From Apostichopus japonicus (lineage: Eukaryota; Echinodermata; Holothuroidea; Aspidochirotida; Stichopodidae): a DNA stretch of 64,000 nucleotides. The translations under genes were made by a program, and so were the position numbers. The notes beneath the pieces were generated by a model, which was not told where the DNA came from, ran no database searches, and saw only the letters and a program-made list of their open reading frames with translations. Of this stretch, positions 28,745 to 63,722 are shown one piece after another. The stretch is taken from assembly GCF_037975245.1 (NCBI RefSeq), contig NC_092574.1, positions 17,461,213 to 17,525,212 of the forward strand. Direction: 5' to 3'. Numbering within the stretch: position 1 is the first letter of the stretch; every line of letters starts with the position of its first letter.

Positions 28745-29106
28745 CAGGGGCGTAGCCAGGATTTGCAAAGTTGTATGCACGACTATCTGAGCGGAGCGCC
28801 ACCATCGGTTGGCGCGGAGCGTACAAGAAAATTTTTGGTTTTACAAACCCCTCAGATGGCCGGAAACGGCCCTTTCCGAGTGTTCATTCTGGTTCTCTGG
28901 CCTCTTGCTAACTTGAGACACCTCAATTTTTATGTAGAAAAAGTGCACATTTTTAACTTGAGGAAAAGTAGGGGACACGTGCCCCCTGTGCCCCCCGGTT
29001 CCGCCGCCCTTGGGGACACCCCTCCCCTTAGACCCATCCCCCGGGCCGGCCATCAGTCTTCAGCCCCCCCCCCCCCCCCACTTAAAAGTACCTTCCTACG
29101 CCACTG
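28745..29106 (-). mobile_element. hAT-like MITE, copy 1
   Basis: It starts CAGGGGCGTAGCCAGG and ends CCTACGCCACTG, an inverted repeat. Internally it carries, in reverse orientation, the family block AGCGGAGCGCCACCATCGGT and TACAAGAAAATTTTTGG. No clear 8-bp target duplication remains. Confidence 0.65.
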
Positions 29107-29884: not shown

Positions 29885-30641
29885 TACAGCAATTGTTAGG
29901 ACTATATATTACTTCCAAATCCTTCTCATCTCAAAGTGCAACGAAAGTGTCATAATGATCAATGGAGGCTGTGTGGCAGTATGCCCAATACAATTATTAA
30001 TCCTGAAATTGATATTTTCATAGAGGTCTATGTATGGGGATGCGCTAGACACTTTCCCTCACACTAAATTGAGCTGTTTTGTCAATGGCTACGTTAGAAA
30101 TTTAAAAAGATTTAAATGTAGTCAGTATAGACTCCAAATTATAGCACGGTTTAATGATGATAGATAATGGAATCATAGGTCATGCAAGCAGAGGGTTAAC
30201 TGGGGGTAACCATGGAAACTAATAATTCCTTTGATAATTAATACATGAATAGAGGGGAGACTTGCACTGATCACATGCTCGCAGATCCTGGTGGGGACAG
30301 CGGGACGCGTCCCCACCAACTTTTTTAGTGGTGGGAACATGATATAGCGTGTCCCCACCAGTTTTGACCAAACGCTGCATTTCAAATTCCCCTGTATTGA
30401 ACTTTGGCGCAGTTTGATCCAGCATTGTGCAAATGACATGCACGCAGTTTATTATATTTTTCCACAGTTGTTAAATTTAGGACGGAAATCGCATTGGGGC
30501 AGTCTATAATTATTTTCTGGGAGAGGACCCCAGACCCATCGTATACAAAAGTCTACTTGGATTATTTTGTCCCCTGATTTTGTTTCTGCAGACGCTCATA
30601 TATTTCCCCAAATTATATTTCTAAGCTATGAGATTTTAAAC
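29885..30641. other. Spacer, no gene recognised
   Basis: AT-rich spacer. A palindrome-like repeat of GTCCCCACCA.. occurs around 30290-30365 (three near copies of GTGGGGAC or its complement). No coding evidence. Confidence 0.4.
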
Positions 30642-31010
30642 TTAAAAGCATTGAAGACTCGCCCTAAACCGCGTGCGGCCATCTGAAAAAGTTGACTTTC
30701 TGTTGCTGGCAAGGGACGTTTTGTTCTTGTCGCTACAAACTGCAGATATTAATGATACGTGATACCTTGTTATCTATAGCTGGACCTGAGATGGCCATCG
30801 CTGTATCGTTTATACACTGTGTTGTGGGTATTGACCGCAGCGGTATGTACTGACTGTACACTATAGTGTCTAATTACCGACGGTAGCAAGCTATGTCTGT
30901 ATTTTCTGGGATCGATGGTGGTGTCTAACACTTCTGTTACACCTCATTCGAAACTAGGTCAGATTACCGGCATTAGACTCTTTTTTTTGCGCGAGTCTTC
31001 ACACCCTTGA
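30642..31010 (+). mobile_element. TTAA-flanked MITE, family A, copy 2
   Basis: It begins TTAAAAGCATTGAAGACTCG and ends GCGAGTCTTCACACCCTTGA. The right TTAA has decayed to TGAA. It shares the body with the copies at 1354, 32374 and 63354. Confidence 0.78.
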
Positions 31011-32373
31011 AACTCAAAGTTTTTCGTTCTTGATTGAACCATAGCAGTGCATAGTGTGTGAGTGGGGAGCGGGGGGGGGGGCTTTGTCCTTGACTTCTTG
31101 GTTATTAATTACATATCATGTATTCATAAAGTAAACCTATAATCGTTCATTTGAGCTGGGCAGTTTTAATGTTACCCAACTGTTACCCACCCACATGTAT
31201 TAAATAACCGGTTTTAAGTTGTTGAATGACACTCTAGACCTAAAGAACCTCATCGATAGTCAATAGAACTGAAAACTATAGAGAGAGCCTTGGTAAGTTT
31301 AGCAAATCAATATGTATCACTGGTAAATTGAACAACAGCAAGTACAAAACATGTATGACATGCTTTGATTACAAATGATTTATAACAAAAAGTAATTAGG
31401 ATGTTCAGTAATGAACATGCACGTTCACCACTGAACTGCATGGTGAGCATGTGCACGTATATAGAGGCCCAGTGTGATTTGACAAGGGTGGAGGGGGGGG
31501 GGGAGAGTTGTACGGAAATATATTGCTCATTATGGTGGGGGAGTGGATGCATTTCTTACGTATATTGTTAACACAAAAGTATGTGCTTGGGATTTAGTTT
31601 TATTCTCTTGCACAAAAGGTAGATTTTACATAGTTCAATCATTAAATGCCATGAGACTTTGTATCACAATGAAATGTTTCATGTGTTGTAATTAATAGTC
31701 TTACAAATATTAGAAATGCCAAATTCTTAAACAACTTCAGTGATAATACATTGTAACTGACGTTTCCTATAAAAGTAAAATAATGTAAAATGTAGGACAA
31801 GGTGCAGTAGAATAGTAGATAATATGTGAACTTTTCGCTCGATTTTGGAGAAGGTCAAAAGGTTATTTAAGGTCAGCAAATGTTCAACCTTGCAAACACA
31901 ATATCATCTCAAGGTATAGGTAACTACAGGGTATCTTATATTTGGCTTTTGACTTCCTCATAATGAGTACAACAAATGAGTATAAGGGCTCTATGGTATT
32001 TGGGTAGAAGTCAAAGGTAATTTGGAGAAAGTAATGTTGAAAATGTGAAAATCTCAAAAAACTATAAAAGAAGGGCGTAGAAATGTTATTACAAAATATT
32101 ATTGTAAATCGTTTATATAACATTTTGTAGAAATCATATTCAAACATGAAAACGTTTTAATAACATTTTCCTAACATTTGATATAACATATTTTCCACAA
32201 ATGTTGTGAAAATGTTCTGAAAACGTTCAGAGGAAGGCATTGACAAAGCTTAAATTTATAAAATTGAAAATATGAAGCAATTTCAATTCAACACAGCTAC
32301 CTGAAGGGTAAAGCCTTTCATTTGATCAAAATATCGCTGATTTTGTTCAGAATGTCATACCGGTCCTTATGCA
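31011..32373. other. Spacer between two family A MITEs
   Basis: Contains G-runs near 31071 and 31493. Around 32090-32230 there are several copies of AACATTTT/AAAACGTT-like words, possibly an old repeat. No gene seen. Confidence 0.4.
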
Positions 32374-32732
32374 TTAAAGGCATTGAAGAATCGCCCCAAA
32401 ACTGCGTGCCGCCCTCTGAAAAAAGTTAACTTTCAGTTGCTTGCAAGTGATTTTTTTTTCTTGTCGCTACAAAATGCAGACAGTAATGAAACGTGATACT
32501 TTTATCTGGACCTGAGATGTCCATCGCTGCTATGTACACTGTGTTGTGGGTATTGACCGTAGCTGCCATGTACTGACTGTGCACTAGTGTCTAATTACCG
32601 ACGGTAGCAAGCTGTGTGTGTATTTTCTGGGATCGATGGTGGTGTCTAATACTTCTGTTACACCTCATTCGAAACTAGGTCAGATTACCGGCATGAGACG
32701 TTTCTTTGTGCGCGAGTCTTCACACCCTTTAA
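32374..32732 (+). mobile_element. TTAA-flanked MITE, family A, copy 3
   Basis: The best preserved ends of the family: TTAAAGGCATTGAAGAATCG on the left and GCGAGTCTTCACACCCTTTA on the right, with TTAA intact at both edges. It is in the same orientation as copy 2, about 1.4 kb downstream of it. Confidence 0.8.
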
Positions 32733-33189
32733 ACCTGTAGTACACAGGTTGCGCATCGCAACCGCGGCACGCCTGTTTCCAGACGGATAGGGCCATCTTC
32801 CTTCACTCTGCCTATTCTAGCCAAATGATAGCATAACAACTAATGGTGTTTTCGCCTAGTCTGTATCTTTCCCCCTCTCCGCATTCTTATAATGCAACCC
32901 GGAAGAGCCGAGAAACGGGACCGCTTAATACATTGTTCAGCAAACGCTACCTACGTTCCTTTTGGCGTTCCATACTATGCACCGTGCACAAAAATGCCAG
33001 GGGTCTAAAGATTGCGCAATGTGATATTATTAGCGGATTTGGTACAAGGCTTATTCTATGTATAGCTTTGCTAACCCCAAAACACTGACAGCTCTCCTAC
33101 ATTGTATTGGACTCTTAGTCATGCGATATTTATTAGCGGCACGGCTCAGGATATTGTTAACAACGGACCAAAAGGTTTGCAGAATAACA
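32733..33189. promoter_or_regulatory. Probable NAXD upstream region
   Basis: Locally more GC-rich than its surroundings (for example GCGCATCGCAACCGCGGCACG near 32752). This fits a promoter just before the NAXD first exon. No TATA box or defined site is claimed. Confidence 0.3.
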
Positions 33190-40644: not shown

Positions 40645-40933
40645 CAGGCGCATAGCCAAGGGGGGAAGGGGGCGACCGCCCCCCCCTTTGAGCATATTTG
40701 TTTGTATGTTTTTATGATATCGCTAGTAATTTCAAGCTTAGATGCAACTTACAAGGCATGGGAAGTGCCATTTCCAGCAATCTGGGAGGCATTTTCAGCC
40801 AAAATTTTCTTGTACACGTAGGGCCAACTCATAGTGGCGCTACGCTTAGATAGTTTTCATTGCAGAATCTACGGCTCTAATAGTTTGTCTACAGGTGACC
40901 CCCTCCCTTGGCAAATTCCTGGCTACGCGCCTG
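40645..40933 (+). mobile_element. hAT-like MITE, copy 2, in the NAXD 3' UTR region
   Basis: 289 bp, starting CAGGCGCATAGCCAAGG and ending GGCTACGCGCCTG. The flanks GACATATC and AGCATATC match at 6 of 8 bases, as expected for an aged 8-bp hAT target duplication. The insertion is 41 bp past the NAXD stop and before its poly(A) candidates, so it may be transcribed in the 3' UTR. Confidence 0.75.
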
Positions 40934-42324
40934 AGCATATCAAAACAATTTGGTGTTCTAAAAGGCTTCCAGAGTCTTGATATAGAGAGGAAGTAGTATT
41001 CATACAAGTCTAAGAAAGAATTATCAGTATGTTTGAAAAGTAAACATCCTAAGAGACATCTATAATAAATATGAAAGAAACCTGATAATATACTGAAATA
41101 AAACTCAGATTAATTCTCTCCAATATGGACAGTGTTGAAAGTCCAGTTTAATTGGTTTCAAAATGCTTACGTCATACTGATTGTACTTCTAAAAGAATTG
41201 AAAAAAGGAATATATAAACATGAAGGCCTTCACTGAGGTACTGACATCAGTTTAGCATATGTAGTAAGAACATTCCAGTTATTTAGCATATTTTCAAGCT
41301 GAATATCTTTGGCACTGTAATAGATAAAAAAAAAAGAGATTTACCAGCCCTCAAATCTGTCTGTTTTCTCGAACAATTGAATATTGAATATGTAATATTC
41401 TGTCGAGTGTTTATCTCTTATTAGAAGAGTAATATAACATATCTGTGTGATCACTTAACTTTTTCTTTTACTGTAAATAAAATGCCACATACCATGCAAT
41501 TTTTGAATGTTTTTATTAGTTTGTGTTTTGTCATATATAAACTATTATCAACCTCCCCCTCTTTCTACTACTCTTAAAAGTACAAAAGGACCCCAACTCA
41601 AAGAATGGGACTCACAATTGGTTATGACTTTTCTATCACTGTCTGAAGAGTAAAAGTTTGGAAGATAATGAAAATGAAACCTAGCATTCTGATTGTTTTT
41701 AATTCACATGTGCTTAGGTTGTCAATGTCGAACAGAATTAAACAAAGGGGCGTAATAAATAATAAAAATAATATGCAACTTATATAGCGCAATATGCAAA
41801 GGCTTCAAAGCGCTTTACAAAACATAATACTTAAAACTAAGTCGTAAAACATAAATACAAAACCAATACACCTAACAAAGATCAAATTACACAATGTAAA
41901 GTAGAGGAAATGTTAAAAATACAGTGTAAAACTACATCAAATATGTGAAAAACTACTCAATTAACTTTATAACTATTTTACAATATACAAAATCAATAAT
42001 TGCATAAAACACATAGCAAATATATATTGCACAAATATTGCAATTGAATTCAGTTTTGTAAAAATGGTTACACTAAAACAGCCATAAAATGAAAGATACA
42101 TTTATATGTCATAGAAATGCAGCCGGAAAAGGTGGGTTTTGATTTGGGTAACATGAAGCAACCCCCTCGCAACCCCCCCCCACTTTAAGGCATGGAATGG
42201 TGAGGGAGGGTAGTCACATGCTATATGAACGACTTAAAGGGGTTGCCTTGGGTGGAGACTTGGCATTGTGTTTACTGCCAGCGTTTCAAATATTTTCTGC
42301 AGTCTTTGATTTTTTTTTTTTTTT
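40934..42324. other. NAXD downstream region and dispersed repeat
   Basis: Contains the poly(A) candidates for NAXD. At about 41755-41835 there is a repeat with TTATATAGCGC and CAAAGCGCTTTACAAAAC like that in the NSDHL intron. No further gene seen. Confidence 0.5.
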
Positions 42325-44570
42325 GATCGTACACCATTGGAATCAGCTAGCAATTATATATCCTCTAAATGTGCTGGTTGTACAGTTAAACGTTGGTCAG
42401 GTAAACAGCCGTGCGTGGGATGTACGGAATCTGTTTAGTTCATATGTGGTCATTGTATACAACCGTGGCTTTGGAGGGGTACATATCACTTCAGTGTGCC
42501 AACGTATTGTATCTGATGTCATTCGTTAACAGCATAATAATCTATTTTTCTATTACGCCTTCGATCGATACAAGGCTTAGTGAAAGTAAAGGGGAAAAGT
42601 AAAAGTAATTTTCTGTACCAAAGAATTTTAAAGCAAAAAAGAAATAATATGGTTAATTTCAGCAATAGTCGACATGGTTTGAGTTTGACAAAATAATACT
42701 TCTCCGAGGAAAGAAGTACGTATATTAATTATTTGATTATACTATGGAACTAAGAAGATACCATACGGTGTAATCATTAGGCTTATCATAATTAACATCG
42801 GATTAGTCATGAGTAAATTATCAAAAGTATACCAGTAAATGGTACTAATTGATATTGACTGCATATATACATATCGATATAATTAGTAGATTATATTCAG
42901 GCGCGTACCCGGGGGGGGGCGTTGGGGGCGCGCGCCCCCCGGGTAAGGAAAAGAGGAGACAAAAAAAGAGAAGAAAAAGGGGGAAAAGGGGGAGAAAAAA
43001 AGAAAAGGAGGAGAGGAAGGAAGGGAAAAGAAAAAGAAGAAAGAGAGAAAAAGAAGAAAAGGAGGAAGTAGAAGATAAACGCCAAGACCTCGGGAAGAGA
43101 AAGAGGAACAGTCATAATTACAGCGCTGGATTTGGGGGCTGTAACGACTTGCCCGAAAAATATAACCAACATTTTTGTTAATATCAATATCATATAAGCA
43201 AGCATAGGTCATTACATCGCATGGCATCGTGTACCGTACGGTCCGTGAAAGTTGCGCAGTATACCGCAGGATGCTAATGTAAACAACGAAATGTCTTGTG
43301 TAGATGGAGAAAAAGCATACAGGTCCAAATATGTCAAAACTCTCTTTTACAGTAGTAATGGCGAATTAGTCTGCCAAGCTTAGAACTTTATTTTAATTAC
43401 CAAGGAGATAATTTTTAAACTTTTCTTTTATTCTCAGCATATTGCCCGAATTTTCAGGGGAAATAGTTTGGTTGGGGGAGGGGCTGCAGCCCCGCCTCCT
43501 ACGTCTATGTGTGTAGTGTTCGGTTTCGAAATATCTGATATCGGAAATATCTGGTATTTTTCATTTCCTTCAACGAAGTTTTATAATTGCCGTTATAAGA
43601 GGTTGTAATATTTGTACACCAATAAATCAACTGTGTCTGAATTTTCGAAAATTTCCTGACCAACATTCTTCATCATACTTCCCTCTACTCGTAGCAATTT
43701 GACCTGTCTGTTAGGGGTTGAAGGAGGTTTTTCTATATTGGTTGTCCATAGATTGAATGTTGTGCAACATTATGTATATGTTTTGAAGTGATTTTCTTCA
43801 CGAGAAATGTGAATTTTCAAATTCTGAACAAATAATGGGCTTTAAACTTTGAAAAGTGGGGCTTTCGGATATTGTGGGCCGTGACGTAGAATCACCTACA
43901 AAAAAAAATGATCCACAGGACATGCAATGAGGTCGAACATGATGTGTGACTGGTTACAATCTTCAAAAAGGTTATGGATGAAAAAAAAAAACTATTGGGA
44001 AATCCTTCTTCTCAGGCAAAAGTGTACATCTGGTTGGTCATTTTCAAGCCCGAGAAGTGCCATTTCCGGTGATCTAGGGGGTATCAAAACCAGAAATTTT
44101 CTTGTACGCTCCGCGCCAACCGATGGTGGCGCTCCGCTTAGATAGTAATTCGCGCCCCCCGGGTAAGAAAATCCTGGATACGCCCCTGATATTTGAAAGG
44201 CGTACAAGTTGACAGGTTGAATAGCGGGAAGCCTCTCTTCGAGAAGCAACACTAATTCAGCGTAAATTGAGGTAAGTAAGCATTTAGTTTGAAAAGAACC
44301 TTATTTGAAAGCTCGTTAATGAATGGTTTGAGGGGTCGAGGTTAAGAAGACAATATTAGGTCAACCAAGGCCTGGGCATAGCTAGACCTTTGTTGTAGTA
44401 GGGGGAGGGGGCTACAATGCTTTTAAAGCTAGGGGAAGTGGTGGGCAGGCATGAGCTCAGTTTTACAAGGAAATAATGTTTGCCATATTTTGCTTTGGTG
44501 GAGGAGATAACAGACATTTGGGTACGGGCCCTCGATCTGTGGCTATGCAACTAGGTTAAATAATTATATT
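42325..44570 (+). repeat. Tandem unit 1 (~0.95 kb), split by a hAT-like insertion
   Basis: The unit begins near TTTTGATCGTACACCATTGG and runs to about 44570 once the 1291-bp insertion is removed. It is similar along its length to the next unit (44571-50100). Shared landmarks include CGTGCGTGGGATGTACG, TACAACCGTGGCTTTG, CTCCGAGGAAAGAAGTACG, GCATATATACATATCGATAT and ACGGGCCCTCGATC. It has no coding signature. Confidence 0.8.
42898..44188 (+). mobile_element. hAT-like element, long form, copy 3
   Basis: 1291 bp. Left end CAGGCGCGTACCCGGGGG, right end CCTGGATACGCCCCTG, inverted to each other. It contains a purine-rich GA tract (42950-43075), then single-copy-like sequence, then the shared 3' block CGCGCCAACCGATGGTGGCG. 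The flanks share ATATT, but no 8-bp duplication is clear. The partner unit at about 49755 gives the approximate empty site. It has no transposase. Confidence 0.75.
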
Positions 44571-44832
44571 TTGTTTTGATCATACAGCATTGGAATCTGC
44601 TAGCAATTATACATCCTATAACTGTGCTGGCTGTTATGGGCGGCCGTTACCGCAAACACAAAATATAAAAATAAATTACACCAAAAATAAATTGTCTCCA
44701 ATCAAAATTTAATTTACTCCATCAAAAATAAATTTACTAAATCACATCAAAAATTAATTAACTCCATCAATAATAGATTTTCATCATCAAAATAAATTAC
44801 TCTGTCGACAGTAAGTTTACTCCCCGCACGTA

Positions 44833-45445
44833 TTAAAGCAGCATTTTGCGTCCTTTTCTCTGGTTTTTCTCAACCTCACTGATTCCACGATGCCATAACG
44901 ACATACATAACTAGCTTATCTATTCAAATCTTACTTCAAATGGTGGCCGAAAAGTCGAAATTGTACAACTTTCAACTTTGGGATCCAAATAAACCTCACC
45001 CATTATATGAATATTTAAAAGCTACGAAAGTCATTGGTCAATACGTAATACAACACCATGCTTGATTTGTGTAGATTGTCTATGGCAGTTGTACCAGGCA
45101 GCTGTTAAGAGTCCAGCTCGCAGGCTGGTTGTACCAAGTTACCAACTCGACGTTTTGAATCTATTTTAGCAACGGCTCATAACCAAACCTGCATCTCTGA
45201 TTGGTTGAATTCAAATTAGTGGGTTGGGGGAACTGTATGCGATTAATATTAAATGTGTAATTTGTCGGAGGACACTTTTCTCATTATCTGCATATGTCCT
45301 TGATTACTTGCCAATCAATGTTTTTGGCAGGGAAAAAAACTTGGCTTATATCTTAGTTTGCTGTTTTGTGATTGATATACGTAAAAAACTCGATGGACTT
45401 GTCAAAAAGTGGATAACGGTGACAAAACGCAAAATGCTGCTTTAA
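44833..45445. mobile_element. Nested TTAA-flanked MITE, family B
   Basis: A 605-bp element (44837-45441) with perfect 15-bp inverted ends AGCAGCATTTTGCGT / ACGCAAAATGCTGCT, flanked by TTAA on both sides. It sits in the left arm of the foldback element. The right arm is uninterrupted at the same point (CACGTATAAAATC), which gives the empty site. No transposase. Confidence 0.88.
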
Positions 45446-45784
45446 ATGCACCCCGTATATAAACTCATCCTGCATCCCGTCCTAACAAAAAAATTACACC
45501 GGAAATAGATACCGTCAAAAATAAATTTCATTAATTCCTACGTCAAAAATAAATTCACGACTGACCTCCAGTTGAATGACCACAGACTTGGCTATTTGCC
45601 AGCGATGTCCAGCACGTCATTTTTGTTTTCTAAGGCGAGTGGCGGCAACAGGTAATGTAGACTCTGCGCGCGATACTATCGAGTCTCCCTACATAAAAAT
45701 AGGCAATGCTATGGCTGTTATATTTCCGGTTATACATACGCTTCACATGAGGCCGGCACGACCACAGCAGGAATGCATCACACA

Positions 45785-46053
45785 CAGGCGCGTAGCCAAG
45801 GGGGGGGGGACGAGGGGGGCAACCGCCCCCCCTTGAGCATATATATATTTTTTATGATATCGCCAGTAATTTCAAAATAAAAAATGCTTAGATGCAACTT
45901 ACAAGGCCTGGGAAGTGTCATTTCCAGCGATCTGGGAGCATTTTCGTCCAACATTTTCTTGTGCGCTTCGCGCCAACTCATAGTGGCGATACGCTTACAT
46001 AGTTTCTCTACGGACTTCGCCCCTCCCTTGGCAAATTCCTTACTACGCCCCTG
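45785..46053 (+). mobile_element. hAT-like MITE, copy 4, with perfect 8-bp target duplication
   Basis: 269 bp, CAGGCGCGTAGCCAAGG to CTACGCCCCTG, flanked on both sides by ATCACACA. This 8-bp duplication places the family in the hAT superfamily. It lies inside the foldback element and is therefore younger than it. Confidence 0.9.
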
Positions 46054-46090
46054 ATCACACACATACATGTATTTCACAGGAACGAATCGC

Positions 46091-46351
46091 TCATAGTAAG
46101 GATCGTCCCAGCCCATTTGGCAAAGAAAAGTTGGCTGATACAGGTAATGAAAATGTGGGTGTATACAAAATAGCTGCATCTCGTCTTTCATCTTCAACTT
46201 CTATCCAATGAAATTTGTCGGTTAGTATAGGCGAATGCTTAACCACAGATGAGCTTCCGTTCTGAGAAACGAAGCTGTCACTGCGCTGTGAAATGTACAT
46301 TTTCTGCGCGGTACACACCCGATTTCCGACGTCCGACAATGTGCGTACCAC
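46091..46351 (-). CDS. Unidentified reverse open frame inside the foldback element
   Basis: 86 codons starting MVRTLSDVGNR, with no recognised domain. It starts 64 bp from, and divergently to, the forward frame at 46415, which would fit a shared promoter. An overlapping frame (46197 downward) also reads protein-like (GWDDPYYERFVPVKY), so which frame is real is unclear. Could be chance. Confidence 0.2.
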   Translation of the reverse strand: MVRTLSDVGNRVCTAQKMYISQRSDSFVSQNGSSSVVKHSPILTDKFHWIEVEDERRDAAILYTPTFSLPVSANFSLPNGLGRSLL

Positions 46352-46414
46352 ATTCGTATTTTAATAATGAAGTAAGAATTTGCATGTTGGGTCTTAGGGC
46401 TGCGAATCGGCAAC

Positions 46415-46759
46415 ATGGATGGATCAAATTCACAACAGACTGTGCAAGATTATTGCCAGCTGTTAATGTCCCACTTACAGCCTGCTATTGACATCGTGCA
46501 CAGGGTTCTTGTTAGCAACCAGGATTTGCCCCGACCAGTAGCCGTGCATAGTTTCGTCGTTGGGCCTAGCGCCGGTCAAACACAGACAGACAGTGACATG
46601 CCAAGTACTATAGTACTGGGCCTGCTTGCCCTAGTACCAGTGGTAGGTCTAACACATTTTGCAGACCAGCCAGCCACTCAATTTTCAAGACCAGCCCTGG
46701 CCATATCTGCAAATCAGACACCACGCATTGGGCCTTTCAGCGCGGAGGAGCAAGAGTGA
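46415..46759 (+). CDS. Unidentified exon-like frame inside the foldback element
   Basis: 114 codons beginning MDGSNSQQTVQDYCQLL, with an adequate start context (GGCAACATGG). At its end GAGCAAGA is followed by a perfect donor GTGAGTA at 46756, which suggests a first coding exon rather than a complete gene. The C-terminal half is Pro/Ser/Thr-rich. I do not recognise the family. Confidence 0.35.
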   Translation: MDGSNSQQTVQDYCQLLMSHLQPAIDIVHRVLVSNQDLPRPVAVHSFVVGPSAGQTQTDSDMPSTIVLGLLALVPVVGLTHFADQPATQFSRPALAISANQTPRIGPFSAEEQE

Positions 46760-47459
46760 GTATTGCCTATTCCTAAACAAAATTGGCCTTTGTATTTTTA
46801 TTATCTTTGCGGTCATAGGTTAGACGTAGAAAGCAAATGTTTGAAAACTTCAAATTTGTAGATTTTAAAGGCCTAACGTTCAAGTTAGGCAATAAGCCAA
46901 TCAATAGACACATGAAATAAAAAAATGACAAACAATAAATAAAAACAACCACAAAATGGAGTAAAAAAGCTTCAATACTAAGCTGGCGCATGCAGAGACA
47001 GGAAACATGGACATATCAACTTTTTAGACACATGCCTACAGTTATTTATTTCATTTCAAACATTTCAGTAAGCTTAAAGGTATGTTGTATTGGCCCCACA
47101 TTCGCCCGATTTTCAAATATGGTCAAATTCAGTCTAAAAATTCAGAAAGTGTGTTATTAGCACTCTGGCGGAAATAATAGGGATATAATAACATGCTTTG
47201 TTTGTTGGAGGAGTATAATTGGATGCATGGAAGCTTTCTTGACAGAGTTACTCAATCTTCCTCTTTGTGAGATTCTTCATTTAAATATACACAAGTATTA
47301 CTTGTACAAGTAGTACTTACACAAGTATACACTGCTGTATCTTGTTCACCTATAGCTGAATATTTCATAGTTTTGGAACTCTCTTAAATAGAAATATTTT
47401 TCAGGAAATCTTACTTTACTTTTGTTGTGTCCTTTATACGTCCCCTACACTCCAAAGAC

Positions 47460-47632
47460 TACGGAAGCTTAAATGTGCCAAAATTGTTCAATTGCTCAGA
47501 TGGAATGAAGTGAACAATTGAACATTTTGCAGAAAAATGTTGAATTGACGAGATATGTTAAGTTGCAAATTAAACATTTTGCAGAAAATTGTTCAATTGC
47601 TCAGTTAAAGTAACTGAGCAATTTAACATTTC
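47460..47632. repeat. Hairpin-forming repeat cluster
   Basis: The word TTGTTCAATTGCTCAG occurs twice (about 47484 and 47588), and AACATTTTGCAGAAAA occurs twice. The segment 47587-47631 is an inverted repeat with a ~20-bp imperfect stem around the loop AAG (CAATTGCTCAGTTA / TAACTGAGCAATT). It lies inside the foldback element. Confidence 0.7.
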
Positions 47633-47927
47633 TCTGAGTTTTGATAAGATATTATCTTGTTATCTAATAAACAGTTTACTGAAAAATGTCAACTTATGGG
47701 GCAAAGTTTTTCTAATGTTGATGGCACTTTTCAGCTTCCGTAAAAGACTGATTGTTTGTGCAAAATTTTATCTATATAACCTAGAAATATGATAGTGACA
47801 TCATAGATCCCATGGAGTTCTTGAATGACACACCCAAAATATGGTCCAAATTTCTTTAATTGCAGGAAAGCACAATTTTATTCTATTAAATTGATCAAAT
47901 AGGGGTTTACTTGTACTTAATTCACAG

Positions 47928-48136
47928 GTCATGCATTCGGGAGAGTGAGTGGTGGTGGTTGCAAGAGGCAACGTAAGCATATATTTTATGATTACTGGAT
48001 GGCAGAAAGCACAGTGAATCATTATCATTGTAGTGTTGGGATGTGTGTATGTGATAAACCTTGCATCACTGGTGAGCATGATATCTTTAGGCACCAGCCT
48101 AAACCTGTAAAAACTCCAGTTTTTGTTCACTTTTAA
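47928..48136 (+). CDS. Unidentified exon-like frame with Cys/His spacing
   Basis: After a possible acceptor (TTAATTCACAG at 47917-47927) a frame reads HAFGRVSGGGCKRQRKHIFY and later HCSVGMCVCDKPCITGEHD before a stop at 48134. Cys and His residues are clustered as in zinc-binding modules, but no family is recognised. It does not join in frame with 46415-46755 by the simplest splice. Confidence 0.3.
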
Positions 48137-49199
48137 TAAGGTGGTCTTCCCGGCAAACCTGTCCGACAGATTGGTGATGAGAATGAGTTACTCAAATCTC
48201 TCTCACTTGCAGTAATACCCATAGAAAATAGACGATTTGCTTCAATTATGCTTTGAAGGACACCGTCAGGGAGTATTGCCTCGTATTCGCAGTATCTCGG
48301 CCATAAACTATCTAAACGGTATTATACTAGTATAAAATCTGATCCACGGTCAGTTATGTAGTTTTCAAACTGTTGCAGAACAAACATTAAACGTTCGTTT
48401 ATACTAGCGAATACATTTTGCTAGCTATATAAGTTGAAGATCAAAGACGAGATGTTGCCATTTTCTATGCACTAACAGGACGTTTGACAACGCTAATATC
48501 GCTGGTGGTCTATTCAATTGGAGGTCAGTGGTGAACTTATTTTGGACAGGAGAAATTTATTTTGGACGGGAGATATTTATTTTGGACGGGATTTATTTCC
48601 TGGGGTAAGTTTTTTGTAAGGACGGGATGCGGGATGAATTTATATCGGACGGGGTAGATTTTATACGTGAGGGGTAAACTGGGTGTCGACATAGTCAACT
48701 TATTTTTGATGATGAAAATTTGTTCTTGATGGAGTAAACTAATTTTTGATGTGATGTAGTAAATTTATTTTGATGTGATTTAGTAAATTTATTTTGATGG
48801 AGTAAATCAATTTTTTGATGGATAAAATTGTCCTTGAAGAATTTTTTTGGGGATGGAATAAATATTTTTTAATACAGTACATTTATTTTTAATGGAGAAA
48901 ATTTATTTTTGCTGTAATTTATTTTTATAATATGTTTTTGCGTTCATGGCCGCCCATAGTATGATATACAGTTATAAGTAAGTCAGAAAAACAAGAACCG
49001 TGCGTGGGATGTACGTTGCAAATCTCATGCGGAATCTTTTTAGTTCATTTGCGGTCATTGCATACAACCGTGGCTTTGAAGGGGTAATTATCACTTTAGT
49101 GTGCCAACATATTCTTTACCTGATGTCATGCGTTAATATAAGCATAATAATCTATTTTTTCTATTACGCCTCCGGTCGATACAATGCTTAGTGAAAGTA

Positions 49200-49222
49200 G
49201 GGGGGAGGGGGGGGGGGGGGTA
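49200..49222. repeat. G-rich run in tandem unit 2
   Basis: A run of Gs (GGGGGGAGGGG then about a dozen more). Unit 1 has only AAAGGGGAAAAG at the matching place, so the run expanded in unit 2 after duplication. Confidence 0.7.
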
Positions 49223-50100
49223 AAGAAAGGAATTTCTGTACCAAAGAATAAGGCAAAAAATATACAATTGTAGATACTGAAATATATTGAAATATATAGT
49301 TTTAGAGACAGAAAATAAAAAACGAAACGTTAATATTATAACCAATTATAATAAGAACCGTATATAGATTATAACAACTTTGACATGAACAATTTAACTG
49401 TGACATTAAGGCCAATAAATGTATTTTCAATGTCATTCTTGCCTTTTTTCTCTTTTCGTAGCAAGACAGGTGGGTGCGGGGTGGGGATGGAGGTGGTTGG
49501 ATCCGAAGTAATACTAAGAACTTATAATTTTAAAGTAAAAAAATAAGAAAAATTGACAATAAAATAATAATTCTCCGAGGAAAGAAGTACGGTATACATA
49601 TATTTAATATTTGTTTATACCATGGAACCAAGAAGATACCGTATGATTCAATCATTAGTCTTATCATTATTAACACCGGATTGGTCAAGAGTGGATTACC
49701 AAAAGTATACCAGTAACTGGTACTAATTTAAATTAACTGCATATATACATATCGATATACTATTTGAAAGGCGAACCAGTTGACAGGTTTAATAGCCGGA
49801 AGCCACTCCTCGAGAAGCAGCACTAATTCAGCGCAAATTGATGTAAGTAAGCATTGAGTTTGAAAATAACCTAATTTGAAAGTTCGGTTAATGGATGGTA
49901 TGTGGGTTAAGAACACATAAATGATATGATGTCAACTAAGGCCGGGACAAAGCTAGACCTCTGTTGTAGTAGGGGGAGGGGGTCCTATGCTAGGGGAGGT
50001 GGTAGGCAGAAATTAGCTAAGTTTTAAAAGATTTTTTTTTGGCCATTTTTGCTTTGGTGTGGGAAGGGGATAACAGACATTTGGAGTACGGGCCCTCGAT

Positions 50101-53100
50101 CCGTGTGGTACTCCCGGGCCGTTGTTCGACGTAGATTTTTATTGATTGTTGCACTGGCAGGACTTTATGCCGAATTGGCACAAAATTGTGTATTAGTAAG
50201 GTCATGCCTGCCTACAGGACACAGAGACTATTTAAGATGTAGCCTCTACATGGTTAGTGTGCAGGCCGGGTGCACGTATATCAGGTTTACTAGTGACCGT
50301 GAGAGGGAGTTGCAGAAAACTATATAGCTACATATCGATAGTACTGAAACTTGATACCGAAATAGCGGCGCATAAGATAAGATTGTGAAAAGGTTAAGAA
50401 ATCCAGCGAGCCACGAAACGTGCCAATTAAATTTATCCACTCACAAAAACAGCTTATTATGAGCAAAATTATATTTGCCAAACAGAAAAACAAAACTCGA
50501 GAAGCTAGGGCCGTCCCTCGATCTACCCCTTCCTTGTATTTGTCAGTGCGGTTCAGTAAACCTTAACAAGTAGGCTCGTTCGCGGTGTTTAATCTTCGTG
50601 TACTTATATTTGGTTTCCTACGAGGTAATTGTAGAAACAACAGCCGTGGCATATACGAAGATTGATCTACGTTTTTTTCCACTCCGTTCAACTACTTCAA
50701 AATAATACACCAAAATAGACAAAATATTTAACAGATACGGTACAGTTGTGACTTATTTCAAATTTCTAAACTCATACCTTCAATGATTATTAAATAACAT
50801 TTAATAGCAGCAACATAAACTTAAACTTCATCAGTCACAGGTCAGTTTATATATTCAGCATGATATTATATAGAACAATACATATATCCCATTTCAAACA
50901 TCATTTTAGGCTTTCGAACTTGCAAACATTTAAAAAAATATGTGTACAATACAGAACTCTTGAATCCAAGAAATAAAGTTAAGCAATGAATTCTGATAAA
51001 AAAAACTTCGTATCACCTAAATGCAGTTTCAACCATGGAAATGGTCTGTATAAGCTTCCGTCATAAGCTACACGTTGACAATTTACACGTAAACACGTGA
51101 ACACGCAGCCCCTTAACAAAGATATGTTATAATGTCGAGAGTACTAGACACCTGACATTATGTAATAAAGCGCAGCTTTATGTTTAAAATGGCGGCCATG
51201 AAGATTTTCGTTTTCCTTTAATGTATAAACAATTGCGATCATATTTCTAATATTATCAGTGATAAGATGAACATCAAATATCTTTGTATGAAAGGACAGA
51301 ATGTTACCGATAAAAGAGATTGGATGATGGCTTTGAAATATAAGATAGATCAAGGCTACATCTGTCGCATTCTTGCATGCGTTAAATATAACAGTGATCC
51401 ATCTAGCTTCTCTGATGTTAACAAATCATTGGGAGTACTTGTACAACACCACTGTTAGTGTAGATCAGTGTACAACACAGGTACCCATTGCCAACTTGAA
51501 GTTATTTTGTTGTCTTGACGTAACCATAAGTGTAAGCACTACAGTACAATTGAGAGCTACATTTGATTGTTTTCCACAGAAGCAATGTAGCCGAAGTTCT
51601 TCTTAGCAGTACCTTTCAAAATTTGTACTTAATTATATTACGGCATTTGTAGTTAAATTCTGCTCGAGGATTTGTAAGTATTAACAGTTCTATTTAATTT
51701 AAAGCAAATACATTCTAGACTAGGTCTTCGCAGAACTGATACGTGCACAAACAAATCATATAAACTATCCAGTCCTAATGATATAATTGTATGTATGTAT
51801 TTATTATGTATTTTAGATCCTCCTGCAAGCAGGAACTCGCAAAGAAGCCATCATTGACTTATCAAAGCCGCAAGCTGACCGAACTCAGTCTCTTAGATTC
51901 ATATTTAACGTCCATGATTATGAATTGTCAATTGTCAACAACTCTGTAACTGGACGGCATACATGATAATCTTGGAGTAACTTGAACCCGGGACATTATG
52001 AATGTGGAATGTATGCAGCTACTGTAGGCCAGAGCCAAATTTTATTATTTGTCACAGAAGACCACAAACATTATGAACATGAATTTTAATTACTACACAA
52101 TGGAATAATGATACCTGTCATGAAATCTTCAAATAAATTTGTCTGGTCATAAACACTGGAGTTAAAAATTCTGGAGGCTGCCTTGATTTATTCTTTAGAA
52201 TTTCTCGATGGAGCCCAAATTGTTAAATGCAAATTTGTGAATCAAGGCAAGTATCGGACCCCAACTCACCTGGCTTTACTGGCATTCTCTTAAAATCTTA
52301 GGGAATTTAACGCTCTCCCATTTTCATGTAGCAATCTACCTGCAAAATTTGATTTCTAAAATGTTGTCTTTATTGTGATCAGAAACGGGCAGTGCACAAT
52401 GTATGTTTTAAGCCTGTGGTAGCTCTAAACTTGGAGAAAATTCAAATTTTGGGGAAGAATTTTGTATAAATGCCTATGCCATTGTGTTCTGCTGTGTCCA
52501 GGTAAGCATGACAATTAATTGTAAATAGCCCAAAAATGTTTCTATGGTACAAGTTTTTTAAAGTTTTCTCTTCATCATGTTTTAGTTGTGATTTGCCCAA
52601 GTGCCCATGTTTTATGCTAAATCTCCCTATTTTGTGGGAAGGAAAATTTTAATCCCCTTATTATTGTGAAAGACATTTCTGGCAGGTCTGAAAAGTTATA
52701 TTTCGCTGGACATCAATGATTTGCAATGACTTTTATTTTCATATTTGATTTTGTCAGTTTAAAGGCAAAAAGGGTACAAAGTCAAAACCGTATGTAATTT
52801 TGCAATTTATATGTTTGACTTAATCAATTGTGAACTATTGTACAGTAATAATCTGCTCTTTTATCGATGTATTTATGTATTTATCGATACTTGTTCCAAT
52901 TCCCTGAACTGAATAGATCTGCATTGTCATTGAGAAACCATTTACAGTCCGATGAATTCTGCTCAGTTTTGAAGCTCACTTTGAAACAAAGTTATTACAC
53001 AGAAACAAGAAATGATTTAATAGTACCTGGCTTACTAGTATCTACAACTCCATTTTTTTTAAGTTAAAGAGTACAGTATGGCCAAAGGAGATTGGGGTAT

Positions 53101-53459: not shown

Positions 53460-55208
53460 CAGGCGCGTATCCAGGGGGGGGGGCGTTGGGGGCGCGTGCC
53501 CCCGGGTAAGAAAAAGAGGAGAGAAAAAAAAGAGGAGAAAAAAGAGGGAAAGAAGGGGAGGAAAAAAGGGAAAAGAAAAAGACGAAAAAAGGGAGAAAAG
53601 GAGGGAGTAAAAGAAAAACGTCAAGACACCGGGAAGAGAAATAGGAAGAGTGTCATCATTACAGCTCTGATCCCTATGATATGCACATGGTCGGGTAGCA
53701 TGTGACGGATCGAAGATTTCGGAAGGGGCGTGCGCCTCACCCTAACCCTTACACCGACAACTCTATTTTTGACGTTTCCATTTTTCCTCTCTCACTAATG
53801 TATCTATATATATACTATAAATGGTCAATCATAACGTGTGTGTGTATGGACGCCTTAAACAATTGTGCTATGAAACCAACTGTGGCTGGTCTCGAACGAG
53901 TCGTCGGGAACATGACGCATTTCGGGAAGGGGCGACCGCCCCCCCCCCCCTCCGAGCATATTTTTATGATATCGCTAGTGATTTCAAAATAGAAAATGCT
54001 TAGATGCAACTAACAAGGCATGGGAAGTGTCATATCCAGCGATCTGGGAGGCATTTTCGGCCAAAATTTTCTTGTACGCTTCGCGCCAACTAGTGGTGGC
54101 GCTACGCTCAGATAGTTTGCCTACAGGCTTCGCCCCTCCCTTGGCAAATTATTCGCTACACGCCTGTTCGTATTTGTAAAGCAAACAGCAGATATCACAT
54201 CATTTCAGTGAGCATCAAAATGGAGGTTCCAGGATGAACAGCTTCAAAACTGTCGATGTGTGTAGTCATAGGAACCCAATTTGAGTTGGGGGGGATGTAA
54301 CGACTTGGCCGAAAAATATAACCTAACCTAGTACGTGGAAATTGCGCAATATACCGCGGGATGCTAATGTAAACAACAAAATGTCTTATGTAGATGGAGA
54401 AAAATCATGGAGGTCCAATTATGTCAAATTATCTTTTACATTAGTAATGGCGAATTAGTCGGCCAAGCTTAGAACTTAATTTTAATTATCAAGGAGATAT
54501 TTTTTAAACTATTCCCCCCCCCCCCCCGCCTCCTACGCCTATGTGTGTAGTGTTCGCTTTCGGAAATATCTGGTATTTTTTTCATTTTCTTCAACCAGTT
54601 TTATCATAGCCGTTATAAAAGGATTTAATATTTGTACACCAATAAATTAACTGTGTCTGAATTTTCGAAAATTTCCTTACCAACATTATTCATCATATTT
54701 CCATCTACTTGTGTGATTTTGACCGGTCTGTAAGGGGTGAAGGAGGTTTTTGTATATTGGTTGTCCATAGATGACATTTGTTGCAACATTGTGGGTATGT
54801 TTTGAAGTGAGTTTATTCACGAGAAATGTGAATTTTCAAATTCTGAACAAATAATGGGCTGAAAACCTTGAAAAGTGGGGCTGTCGGGTATTGTGGGCCG
54901 CAACGTAGAATCACCTACAAAAGCAATGATCCAAAGGAAATATGATGAGGTCGAACATGATGTGTGACTGGTGACAATCCTCAAAAAGGTTATGGATGGG
55001 GGAAAAAAAACTATTTGGAAATACTTGGTTCTCAGGCAAAAGTGTACATCTGGTTGGTCATTTTCAAGCCTGAGAAGTGCCATTTCCGGTGATCTGGCGG
55101 GTATTAAAACCAGAAATTTTCTTGTACGCTGCGCGCCAACCGATGGTGGCGCTCCGCTTAGATAGTAATTCGCGCCCCCCGGGTTACAAAATCCTGGATA
55201 CGCCCCTG
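53460..55208 (+). mobile_element. hAT-like element, long form, copy 5, with nested insertion
   Basis: CAGGCGCGTATCCAGGGG at the left and ATCCTGGATACGCCCCTG at the right, flanked by ATATA on both sides. It shares the GA tract and the sequence CGACTTG.CCGAAAAATATA with copy 3, and the same 3' block. About 600 bp (53680-54288) is absent from copy 3 and includes another short family member. A 177-codon reverse frame here is element sequence, not a host gene. Confidence 0.78.
53921..54166 (+). mobile_element. hAT-like MITE, copy 6, nested in copy 5
   Basis: Shares ATTTTTATGATATCGCTAGT and the CGCTACGCTCAGATAGTTT block with copies 2 and 4, and ends CTACACGCCTG. Its left terminus is lost: the sequence begins GGGAAGGGGCGACCGCC. 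Confidence 0.65.
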
Positions 55209-56365: not shown

Positions 56366-56994
56366 ACAGTAGTTCTGTACTATTGTTATCACACAGTCTG
56401 GAATATACTTTGAAGTATTCCTATTTTGTGCAGCAATTTGAAGTTTCTTAAATATCTCTTAATATAATACCATGGTCTCTGTATATCTTCCCTGCTATAC
56501 GTCTTTGAATCAAACAGAATAAGAGATGGTAAAGGTTGCTGGGATCACATGCCATAATGCCCCGACCATCAGAGTCTGCCATTTGTTTAAAAATCGTAAC
56601 TAAGGTCTGCGGAGTCTAAATATGTGAGAATGACACAACAGCCTGCCTTATTGTAATTGTGTAAAAATCTCCAACCAGTGGGTACGGTAACAGGTCCTGT
56701 GCTCTTCAAACTATCAAGCTGTTCTATCATACACCTTCAGTGTATTAATACTTTCTGTGCACTGTAAATCAGCAAGCCATAGAACGCTGTGCATCTCATC
56801 TATATATATATATGTCCATGGTATATTAACAAAATATACCAAATTTCTATTTGCAGGGTGAAATGAGCTAACTTTTGTGTTTTCTTGTCATCAGATTTAC
56901 AGATTGTGCTTGAATATTATTTTGCAGTTTTAGTAGCAATAATTTATTACTTTGTTTTTGTTCATTTTCAGAATTTCAACTACTTTGAATCAAG

Positions 56995-58053
56995 ATGGAG
57001 GATTCATTTAAAGTCGAACCTACAGGGCATCCAGGCTACCAAAGTACCATCAAAATAAAGGTGCTGTCGTTGTTTTTACTCCTCTTAATCTCTCTGATAG
57101 GTGGCGCCATACCCCTGTACCTGGTCCGAGATGTGGAACTCAACACACCGCGCACCATCAGAAGGAACAGACGCATTAGGCGTGTGGTCAGCATAATGAA
57201 CTCCTTCTCGGGCGGGGTGTTCCTGGGCATAGCGTTAGTTCATCTTTTGCCGTCGGTACGTGTCCTGCTCACAGATGCACTGAAGGCTAAGGACCCTGAA
57301 CATGGTGTTTCAGAGTACCCTTGGGCTGAACTTATTGCCTCTGCTGGGTTTTTTCTAATTGTCATGGTGGAACAAGTTTTGCTAGCATTTGAAGAGAAAC
57401 TAGGCTCGTCTTCGGGGAACTCGAGTCTGGCTGTCGTCCATCATGCTCACGGCCACATGGATACCCACACACCAGTCCGAACAGTGGCAAGCAGCTCTCC
57501 ATCCCTGAAGGAGGAAGAAGCTGAAATGATGGATGTGGACTCAGAAAAGCCAGCAATATCGGGTGGCAAGTCCAGAGGACAGAAAGCTCTCACAATTTTA
57601 AATGCTTGTATCCTTCTTGTAGCCCTTTCCATTCATTCAGTCTTGGAAGGCCTAGCCCTGGGGCTACAGCTCACCAGGACCGCCACTCTCGATCTCCTCA
57701 TCGCTCTCTCATTGCACAAAGGGATCGAAGCCTTCACAATCTCGTTGAGCATAGTCCAGACACCGGCTAGCCGTAAACTTAAATACCTGACATTCATCGT
57801 CTTCAGTTTCACGTCGCCCATCGGCATCGCGGTCGGCATACCCATCACGTCGCAGGAGAATGCGGAGAGCGTCACCATGTTACTGGTGAACGGTGTCCTA
57901 CAGGGACTGGCAACGGGAACGTTCATCTTTGTCACATTCATCGAAATACTGCCCCAAGAATTGAAGGCCAGAGGTGATCGAATGATCAAATTTGCAGTCA
58001 TGCTTATAGGTTTTGGTATCATTGCTGGTGTCACAAGTTTAGAATTTAGTTAA
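56995..58053 (+). CDS. ZIP-family zinc transporter (SLC39A1/A3-like)
   Basis: A 352-residue membrane protein that should import Zn2+ into the cytosol. Eight membrane segments can be seen: about 22-44, 64-87, 111-131, 199-222, 231-254, 264-285, 295-320 and 332-350. Segment 4 has HSVLEGLALGLQ (214-225) and segment 5 HKGIE (241-245), the metal-site motifs of ZIP subfamily II. Segment 7 ends FIEILPQEL. The long loop after segment 3 has a His cluster HHAHGH (149-154) and an acidic stretch. The start at 56995 follows a 3' splice site at 56971 by 23 bases, so the coding region is intronless but a 5' UTR intron exists. No poly(A) signal is close to the stop. Confidence 0.95.
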   Translation: MEDSFKVEPTGHPGYQSTIKIKVLSLFLLLLISLIGGAIPLYLVRDVELNTPRTIRRNRRIRRVVSIMNSFSGGVFLGIALVHLLPSVRVLLTDALKAKDPEHGVSEYPWAELIASAGFFLIVMVEQVLLAFEEKLGSSSGNSSLAVVHHAHGHMDTHTPVRTVASSSPSLKEEEAEMMDVDSEKPAISGGKSRGQKALTILNACILLVALSIHSVLEGLALGLQLTRTATLDLLIALSLHKGIEAFTISLSIVQTPASRKLKYLTFIVFSFTSPIGIAVGIPITSQENAESVTMLLVNGVLQGLATGTFIFVTFIEILPQELKARGDRMIKFAVMLIGFGIIAGVTSLEFS

Positions 58054-58091
58054 AACACTGACGATGTAGTTTTGTTTGTGACCAGTGTTTG

Positions 58092-58500
58092 TAGTCTTCT
58101 TGTAGCCCTGTCCATTCCCTGTCCATGCATGGTCAGAGTGAAAGACCTGTTCGAGCGGTGCAAGGCATGGCTCCTGCAGGTTCATTCCACTTTGGGAGGC
58201 CTCACCTTCTTATAATAACTGCCACTCTCTATCTCCTTATCGCTCTCTTTGCACAAAGGGATTGAAGCCTTCACAACCTCGTTAAGTATAGTTCAGACAC
58301 CAGCTAGCCGTAAAAACTTAAATACCTCACATTTATTTATTTAGGCCTTGGTATCATTACAGGTGTCACAAGTTAACAATTTAGTTGAAAAACTGACAGT
58401 GGAGGTTTTGTTTGAAATCAGTGTATGTAGCCTTCTTTTAGCCCTTTCCACATCTTGGAAGGCCCCGTCCTGGGACTACAGCTTATATGGACTGACACAT
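58092..58500 (+). pseudogene. Decayed tandem fragments of the ZIP gene
   Basis: Sequence matching the segment 4-5 coding region (TTGCACAAAGGGATTGAAGC, CAGACACCAGCTAGCCGTAA) recurs at 58092-58345. It joins directly to a copy of the gene's end (TTGGTATCATTACAGGTGTC at 58348) and its 3' flank, and then a second start of the segment 4 region (58430-58500, CTTGGAAGGCCCCGTCCTGG). The segment 6-7 coding part is missing, and frameshifts and stops are present, so it is not functional. Confidence 0.85.
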
Positions 58501-60438: not shown

Positions 60439-63353
60439 GTGTCAAAGTTCATGGATCATTGCAATGGGCAGACACATGAGGACTCGAATTGTCTTTTGAA
60501 GAAACATAATGGGGATTGAGAGTTGAATGAAAGTTTAAAGTTGCTTGCGTTTAACCATAACTTGAAGAATCGCTGCAGAGCTGATATGCGGAGACTTGTA
60601 TTCACAATGCACATCATAAGCTATACTTGGATCAAATAATATATATATAAATAATATATAGATCTGAACTTAACGGGAACTGCTCAGGATCAGTATCAGT
60701 CAACGTTGAGTGACCAACATCATACAAAACACAGGGCTCAAATATAAATTGGAAGTGATTTAATGCTTTCCATTCAAATTCTTGACAATATTTTTGACAA
60801 AATTTACATTTCGTTATAAATTTAAACCATGCAGTTTTGTTTTCGTTACATCAATTGTGCAATAATTCTGCGCGAACTCTCTCTTCTGCTGTACGTAGGT
60901 CACCTGATTTAAATATGGACATTCCATTTTCTTCAGTTATGTTTGGCATTATATATACACCAATGAATGGGATACATTTGATTTAAATGCAAAAACACAC
61001 TCAGGGTACAGAACATGTGTGAAGTGAATCAATTTGTGTTGAAAACATTCAATCGATTATTACCTGTACAGTATAAACCAAAACTATTCTTGGTTTGGTT
61101 GGTAATGTTAGATAATGGTTAGAATTTGCAGTTTTACTAAGTGATTATTGTTGAATCGATCATTAAGGCAGACTTTATGTGCATGTTAAGGTATTTGGGG
61201 TGTAGTAGGTGGGGAGGGGGGGGGGTGTTGGAGGGGTTTTAAGGGATAAATTATGAGGGGAGGAGTTCATTTATCCCTGGAGAGTATGAGCTGCTTTATA
61301 ATACAATGATTAAGAATAATTTCACTGAGTTACAAAACTTTTTGCACTTTCAGAGATTTACTAGTAAATCAATAATCATGTTCATTTTAATATGTTGTTA
61401 TTCATAGATGAATTATAGAATATCCCTACCATGTTCATAACCCTGGCAAGAATTCTAAGTCTATAAGTTAAGTGAGTCAACTGCATCATAACCTTTTGTA
61501 GTAATATCTAAACAATAATTTCATCAGTTTATATATTCTGTGCCAGATTAACACCCTGTTGGGCCCTTAGGTAAAATATGCTAGCCCCTCTCCCCTTTAT
61601 TAACTGTTTTGCAGGTAGGACCCCTTCCTCCTCCCCCCCCCCCCTCAAATGGTATCCCTTGTCTAGAATTATTCACAGAGATTCCTAGACCTTGTACAGT
61701 ACTGCCCCTTGGCCTTGGACATCTTCTAGGCATTGCCTCAACTGTGTACATATTGCATTAATCTGGCACTGAATGTATTGCAAAGACTTCTATAAGGTTG
61801 GTGTAGATTGCTGATTGGCTATTTTGACTATAATCGATAATAGATTATAATAGACTATAATAGATTGCTGATTGGCTACGTAATGTCGATTGGATACGTT
61901 GACCATAACCTAGGTTTGCAATTGGCTATGTTGACCTTAGCTCTTTCTACTGTGCATAGTATAAAGAATTATTTATCATTTCATTAAAATCAGCAATCAG
62001 CTGTTTATCTGGATGTAATGCTACTAATGCTGGTCGATTCTGACCCTCCAAATTTATTCACAGACTTTCTAGAGTGTTAAATAAGACAATTTCTCTGTGA
62101 TATCAAATTGCTTTCAAGGATGGTTTAAAATGTTAAATTTATAGCATAAATTATCTGACTGACATTTGGCATTCCAGCATATTTGGGGACTAGGCTGATG
62201 GCCTCTCTAGCTTCTTGTCACAATAGTAGAGGTTTCATGTTGCAGATATTGTACTGTTGTCTTTCCTCTACCTCATCGATTAGATAATCATAAAAATGTG
62301 TAAAAGTAATAAAAGAAAAAAAGATATTTATTACTGCTTCTCACCATCCCAAGATGAGAGCAGTAATAAATTAGACAATCACTTGCACCAGAACAGTGAT
62401 TTGTGATGTTTATCGTTGAAACAAGAATCTGTATTGATTTAGGTATTAACCATTCTGCTCTCCTTCATAGGACATTCGGTTGCAATACAAATGATTTAAA
62501 TTATATAATTTGATATGCAGGGAGTTATTTTGTGATTGTGTGAATTCAAATTAAAGTCCATATAAAGTAATTGGAATATGCTTGGAGATAATGCTTCCAA
62601 GTTGATTGACACCAAAATGAACAGTTTTAGCTCATTTTGTTATTAGTCTTTGCTATTTTGTTCAATATTAATTTATGCTATTTTTGAAGATTATTTCAGA
62701 ATGAAAAAGATGTAGATTATTCCTGTTGTTTTGTATCATCTTGTTGATAACAGGGTCACTTTGTTCAACTTTAATCCATCACTGAGGCTGAGTCTAAAGA
62801 GCAAAATTGTCTTGAAGATTGTTCATGACAAAACTGTGAAAAAAGAAGAATGCATTGTGAAAGAGACAAGTGTTTTATAGTCATATGTAGTGAATGATGA
62901 TGTGTAACCATGCAGTCACTTAAACTTAAAATCCTATTTTGATTAGCTTCTTCAGGAGGCTTCTTTTTTATTCAGAGTTAACTGACTATTTAGTTATATG
63001 TAATTAATATTTAAGTAAACAGTAGTTTCTTGTCTGTTTTAATTAATTTTGTTATTATGAAGGAAGTTTTCTTTTTCTACAGTAGGATTTTCTTGATTAA
63101 AGAATTACGAAGTTAAGCGTCAGATATTGAACATAATTACAATTAGTACATACAGTGTACTGCACGTGACATGGTGCTCAAGGATACCAGTGTTTTTATT
63201 TGTACTCGATATTTCTATGAGTTTGTTGACATAGTGTTTTATCTATCGGTGTTAGAAATTGTAACTCCTCAGGTTCAACTTAATTAACTATTTAGGTAGA
63301 TGTACTTAGTGGGCCATATTATGTGGTTATGATGATAATGAATATTATGGTGT
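60439..63353. other. Spacer, no gene recognised
   Basis: AT-rich sequence with G- and C-runs near 61210 and 61630, and a short direct repeat of ATAATAGATTATAATAGACT-type words at 61830-61875. No coding or RNA gene seen. Confidence 0.4.
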
Positions 63354-63722
63354 TTAAATAGGCATTGAAGACTCGCCCCAAACCGTGTGCGGCCATCTGA
63401 AAAAGTTAACTCTCTGTTGCTTGCAAGTGACGTTTTGTTTGTGCCACTACAAAATGCAGACAGTAATGAAACGTGATACCTTGTTATCTTAAGCTGGACC
63501 TGAGATGTCCATCGCTGTATCGTTTATACACTGTTGTGGGTAATGACCGCAGCTGTATGTACTGACTGTACACTAGTGTCTAATTACCGAAGGTAGCAAG
63601 CTGTGTGTGTATTTTCTGGGATCGATGGTGGTGTCTAACACTTCTGTTACACCTCATTCGAAACTAGGTCAGATTACCGGCATTAGACGTTTCTTTTTGT
63701 GCGAGTCTTCACACCCTTTTAA
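63354..63722 (+). mobile_element. TTAA-flanked MITE, family A, copy 4
   Basis: 369 bp with TTAA at 63354-63357 and 63719-63722. GGCATTGAAGACTCGCCCC starts and GCGAGTCTTCACACCC ends it. It is the copy most similar to the one at 30642. Confidence 0.8.

Follow-up and report, generated by a model that had tools for sequence, protein, structure and literature searches.

How did two similar stretches of about 0.95 kb come to lie next to each other in the genome of Apostichopus japonicus, and when in their history was each of them split by a transposon? The question was approached in a window of 64,000 nucleotides (contig NC_092574.1, positions 17,461,213 to 17,525,212 of the forward strand), and all coordinates below count from its first letter. 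The G+C content of the window is 37%, and 24 of its open frames reach 100 aa or more, up to a maximum of 352 aa. The single clear gene is a ZIP zinc transporter in one frame at 56989-58050 (Pfam PF02535, E 4.3e-55). Parts of 57607-58114 in this region recur at 58218-58483 with 80-88% identity, which may reflect a partial duplication of this gene. A roughly 365-bp dispersed repeat is present in four copies, 83-92% identical (1354-1720, 30639-31013, 32374-32734 and 63353-63722), with the copy at 1354-1720 oriented opposite to the other three, and two tandem arrays lie adjacent to each other at 22978-23201 (55-bp units, 99% matches) and 23220-23439 (72-bp units).

Tandem arrangement of the two units

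An earlier note on this DNA had described two tandem, collinear copies of a unit of about 0.95 kb, each interrupted by a different element. Self-alignment of the 42-51 kb region bore this out: self-BLAST found collinear similarity outside the inserts in four plus/plus blocks between 42316-44541 and 44569-50105, namely 42316-42381 with 44569-44634, 42381-42648 with 48967-49268, 42690-42881 with 49561-49759, and 44190-44541 with 49761-50105. Unit 1 comprises a left part at 42316-42897 (plus strand, 582 bp, matching 44569-44634 and 48959-49759) and a right part at 44189-44541 (plus strand, 353 bp, matching 49761-50105). Unit 2, in the same orientation, comprises a left part at 44569-44634 (plus strand, 66 bp, 88% identical to 42316-42381) and a right part at 48959-50105 (plus strand, 1147 bp, matching 42381-42881 and 44190-44541). 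Overall identity is 88.5% across 851 gap-free columns. The joined units gave a top local score of 505 bits, compared with a maximum of 31.9 bits when unit 2 was replaced by order-1 Markov copies of itself (200 copies, 198 of them with any match), so the similarity is far beyond chance.

The coordinates given earlier were accurate to some tens of bases, with small corrections at both edges. The match begins within a T run at 42316, the sequence becoming unique near 42325, and its right edge fades out near 44541 in unit 1 and near 50105 in unit 2. Between the units lies a junction of about 27 bp (44542-44568) with a clear match to neither unit edge. Without its insert unit 1 measures 935 bp and unit 2 1213 bp, the latter falling to 962 bp once a net 251-bp difference (see below) is also removed. 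When the left flanks of the two units were compared with each other, 0.46 of background pairs scored equally high, and for the right flanks the fraction was 0.07.

Assemblies of heterozygous marine animals often contain false tandem duplications, and the pair might accordingly represent two haplotypes of one locus, misplaced side by side by the assembler. This is highly improbable here, since 11.5% substitutions together with many indels are high for alleles, and the sequence beyond the units is not doubled.

Character of the repeated unit

The divergence between the units is uniform. Kimura two-parameter (K2P) distances in the four blocks were 0.132, 0.120, 0.131 and 0.125 (pooled 0.125, 95% range 0.099-0.151), and this equality fits one duplication event. 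The 98 substitutions in 884 aligned columns were evenly spread (chi2 15.8, df 16, p 0.47, in 17 bins of 50 bp, with the final 34 columns omitted). The longest identical run, 32, was reached in 1834 of 2000 shuffles, and the substitutions fell on the three phases as 28/294, 36/296 and 34/294, a codon rhythm being absent.

A functional piece kept twice, whether an exon, an RNA gene or a regulatory element, has some features in its favor: both units begin with short open stretches that have residues in common, among them Cys-x-x-Cys pairs, and the right parts of both units carry a donor-like GTAAGT. However, most differences in the common frame alter residues (counted by eye), and insertions broke both units. 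Translation of 42001-50302 in all six frames gave no Pfam match at E 0.01, and a coding unit was rejected on this result together with the even substitutions and the missing codon rhythm. A structured RNA is not supported either, as there was no Rfam match at the gathering threshold and no tRNA. Retention for function is thus the least probable of the explanations considered, and the unit behaves as neutral noncoding DNA with no sign of function.

A more serious competitor derives the unit from a dispersed mobile element not described before, or from a satellite whose monomer it would be, and makes the pair a dimer or the remnant of an array. The two copies have nearly the same end points on either side, and the T run left of unit 1 could be read as a poly-A tail on the minus strand. 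Precedents are at hand: the account of KolobokP includes tandem multimers formed by some transposons (PMC9587614), and that of foldback elements includes repeats able to seed satellites (PMC4079207). Against it, inverted ends of the unit did not exceed chance (0.46, 0.98 and 0.74 of 3000 background pairs scored equally high), nor did a direct repeat flanking the unit pair (0.13), taken as a target-site duplication. The lack of a Pfam match also counts against a mobile element. Only two copies are present in the 64 kb, a search with an nhmmer profile of both units and with word-4 BLAST having given no third one; the next-best matches in the window were at chance level (BLAST E 0.019 over 34 bp; nhmmer E 2.1). 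Little weight attaches to the lack of matches for exact unit patterns in viral_contigs or genome_contigs, which are mostly microbial and viral, or for 48959-50105 in distant blastn against phages and plasmids, since the collections searched hold almost no animal DNA. We regard the mobile or satellite origin as possible but unlikely, and somewhat more doubtful still is its narrower version, in which the unit belongs to a family of short repeats of the host, dispersed or satellite and not described before, and is present here as a dimer, with ends unlike those of known transposon types.

Three further candidates were rejected. A pair of LTRs or other terminal direct repeats does not fit units that lie about 27 bp apart without an internal region. 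Towards the right edge of the unit, at about 44374-44563, a supposed decayed MITE amounted to a 7-bp inverted match, equalled by 0.13 of background pairs, and the best match for a third decayed unit to the right of 50105 was equalled by 0.07 of them.

The hAT-like element in unit 1

The insert in unit 1 (42898-44188, 1291 bp) carries inverted CAGGSGCGTAYCC ends, CAGG-type termini whose score is equalled by only 0.0033 of background pairs. A second, longer copy lies at 53460-55208 (K2P 0.097 over 1068 columns); it has extra sequence at 53669-54290, including a small hAT-like MITE fragment at 53924-54169. The insert had been called hAT-like, an assignment which is supported by its ends, by the second copy and by a small relative with an 8-bp duplication (see below).

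It resembles hAT nonautonomous elements in the CAGG...CCTG inverted ends and in having several relatives in the window, and differs from them in its flanks and in the transposase. hAT elements produce 8-bp target-site duplications, whereas the two sides of the 1291-bp element share only the 5 bp ATATT, which is no better than background. The six frames of the element gave no Pfam match, and the lack of a transposase is as would be expected of a nonautonomous element. Scanning the window for CAGGGGCGTAGCCAG with at most three mismatches gave 12 matches against a shuffle mean of 0.42, so this hAT-like terminal type is common here. The same terminal type is seen at 28745-29106, with CAGGGGCGTAGCCAG at the left and an inverted end with three mismatches at the right, and this stretch partly matches the 1.29-kb element. 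A pattern made from the latter had no match in collections of mostly microbial and viral DNA.

The foldback-like element in unit 2

Unit 2 is split by a larger insert (44635-48958, 4324 bp) with long inverted repeats that start with TATGGGCGGCC. Its left arm lies in three pieces, 44635-44837, 45444-45583 and 46159-46242, which face 48387-48958, and short tandem subrepeats occur within the arms. The terminal 40 bp outscored 3000 of 3000 background pairs. A single frame of 127 aa (46376-46756) is present, without a Pfam match. Foldback elements are described as having long inverted repeats of this kind, with tandem subrepeats (PMC4079207), and in this the insert is like the foldback or sea urchin TU type; it is unlike them in having no clear target-site duplication, as its flanks share nothing beyond chance, and the family assignment is tentative.

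Two smaller elements are nested in it. One, in the left arm (44833-45445, 613 bp), is flanked by TTAA and carries TTAAAGCAGCATTTTGCGT at both ends, inverted. The rule stated for Kolobok combines a TTAA target with RR/YY termini (PMC9587614); the TTAA duplication and the 5'-AG...CT-3' ends of this element agree with it. In contrast to Kolobok proper, the 613-bp element has no transposase, and it is assigned to Kolobok from its ends only. The other is a hAT-like MITE (45785-46053, 269 bp) with CAGGCGCGTAGCC ends, a perfect 8-bp repeat ATCACACA on either side and relatives at 40645-40933 and 53924-54169. Another nested MITE may lie at 47460-47742 within the 4.3-kb element, where two inverted arms of 21 nt with 90% complementarity are separated by 241 nt.

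Mid-unit length difference and empty sites

Besides the large insert, an extra of about 275 bp had been reported in unit 2. The extra is present, and its size needs correction: between the BLAST blocks, 292 bp of unit 2 (49269-49560) face 41 bp of unit 1, a net 251 bp. Terminal repeats typical of an element were not seen in 49269-49560, and the difference may reflect either an insertion in unit 2 or a deletion in unit 1.

The proposal that each unit approximates the other as it was before insertion is right, provided that no more than an approximation is meant. The quoted sites are present, but 16 bp left of the element in unit 1 have no counterpart in unit 2, and 9 bp right of the element in unit 2 have none in unit 1, so the empty sites are only approximate mirrors.

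Origin of the pair and order of events

The explanation that we favor, at a probability of roughly two in three, is one local tandem duplication of noncoding DNA, followed by decay and by independent transposon insertions. A single event, such as a repair or replication error, would have produced a second copy of a noncoding host segment of about 0.95-1.2 kb, in tandem with the first and similarly oriented, and both copies would then have drifted unconstrained to a substitution difference of 11.5%. Later, a hAT-like nonautonomous element presumably entered copy 1, and an element with long inverted repeats, of foldback-like type, entered copy 2, itself receiving two smaller elements. As each large insert is found in one unit only, both should postdate the duplication, unless one of them was cleanly excised. 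The K2P values for the copies of the 1.29-kb element (0.097, 95% range 0.077-0.120) and for the arms of the 4.3-kb element (0.144, 0.095-0.187) have ranges that overlap with each other and with that of the units, so the divergences agree with this order but alone are no proof of it.

The pair is like other local tandem duplications of eukaryotic noncoding DNA in its adjacent, same-strand copies, its even divergence and its lack of terminal repeats. It is unlike them in that both copies were later split by transposons and that the short junction is unexplained; the latter, together with the lack of a clear mechanism at either breakpoint, speaks against a single duplication.

Overall, the feature is ordinary genome wear and opens no new question. 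The locus preserves a duplication and the transposon insertions that came after it; the two units serve as approximate empty sites for both elements, and it helps to order the insertions in this part of the genome.
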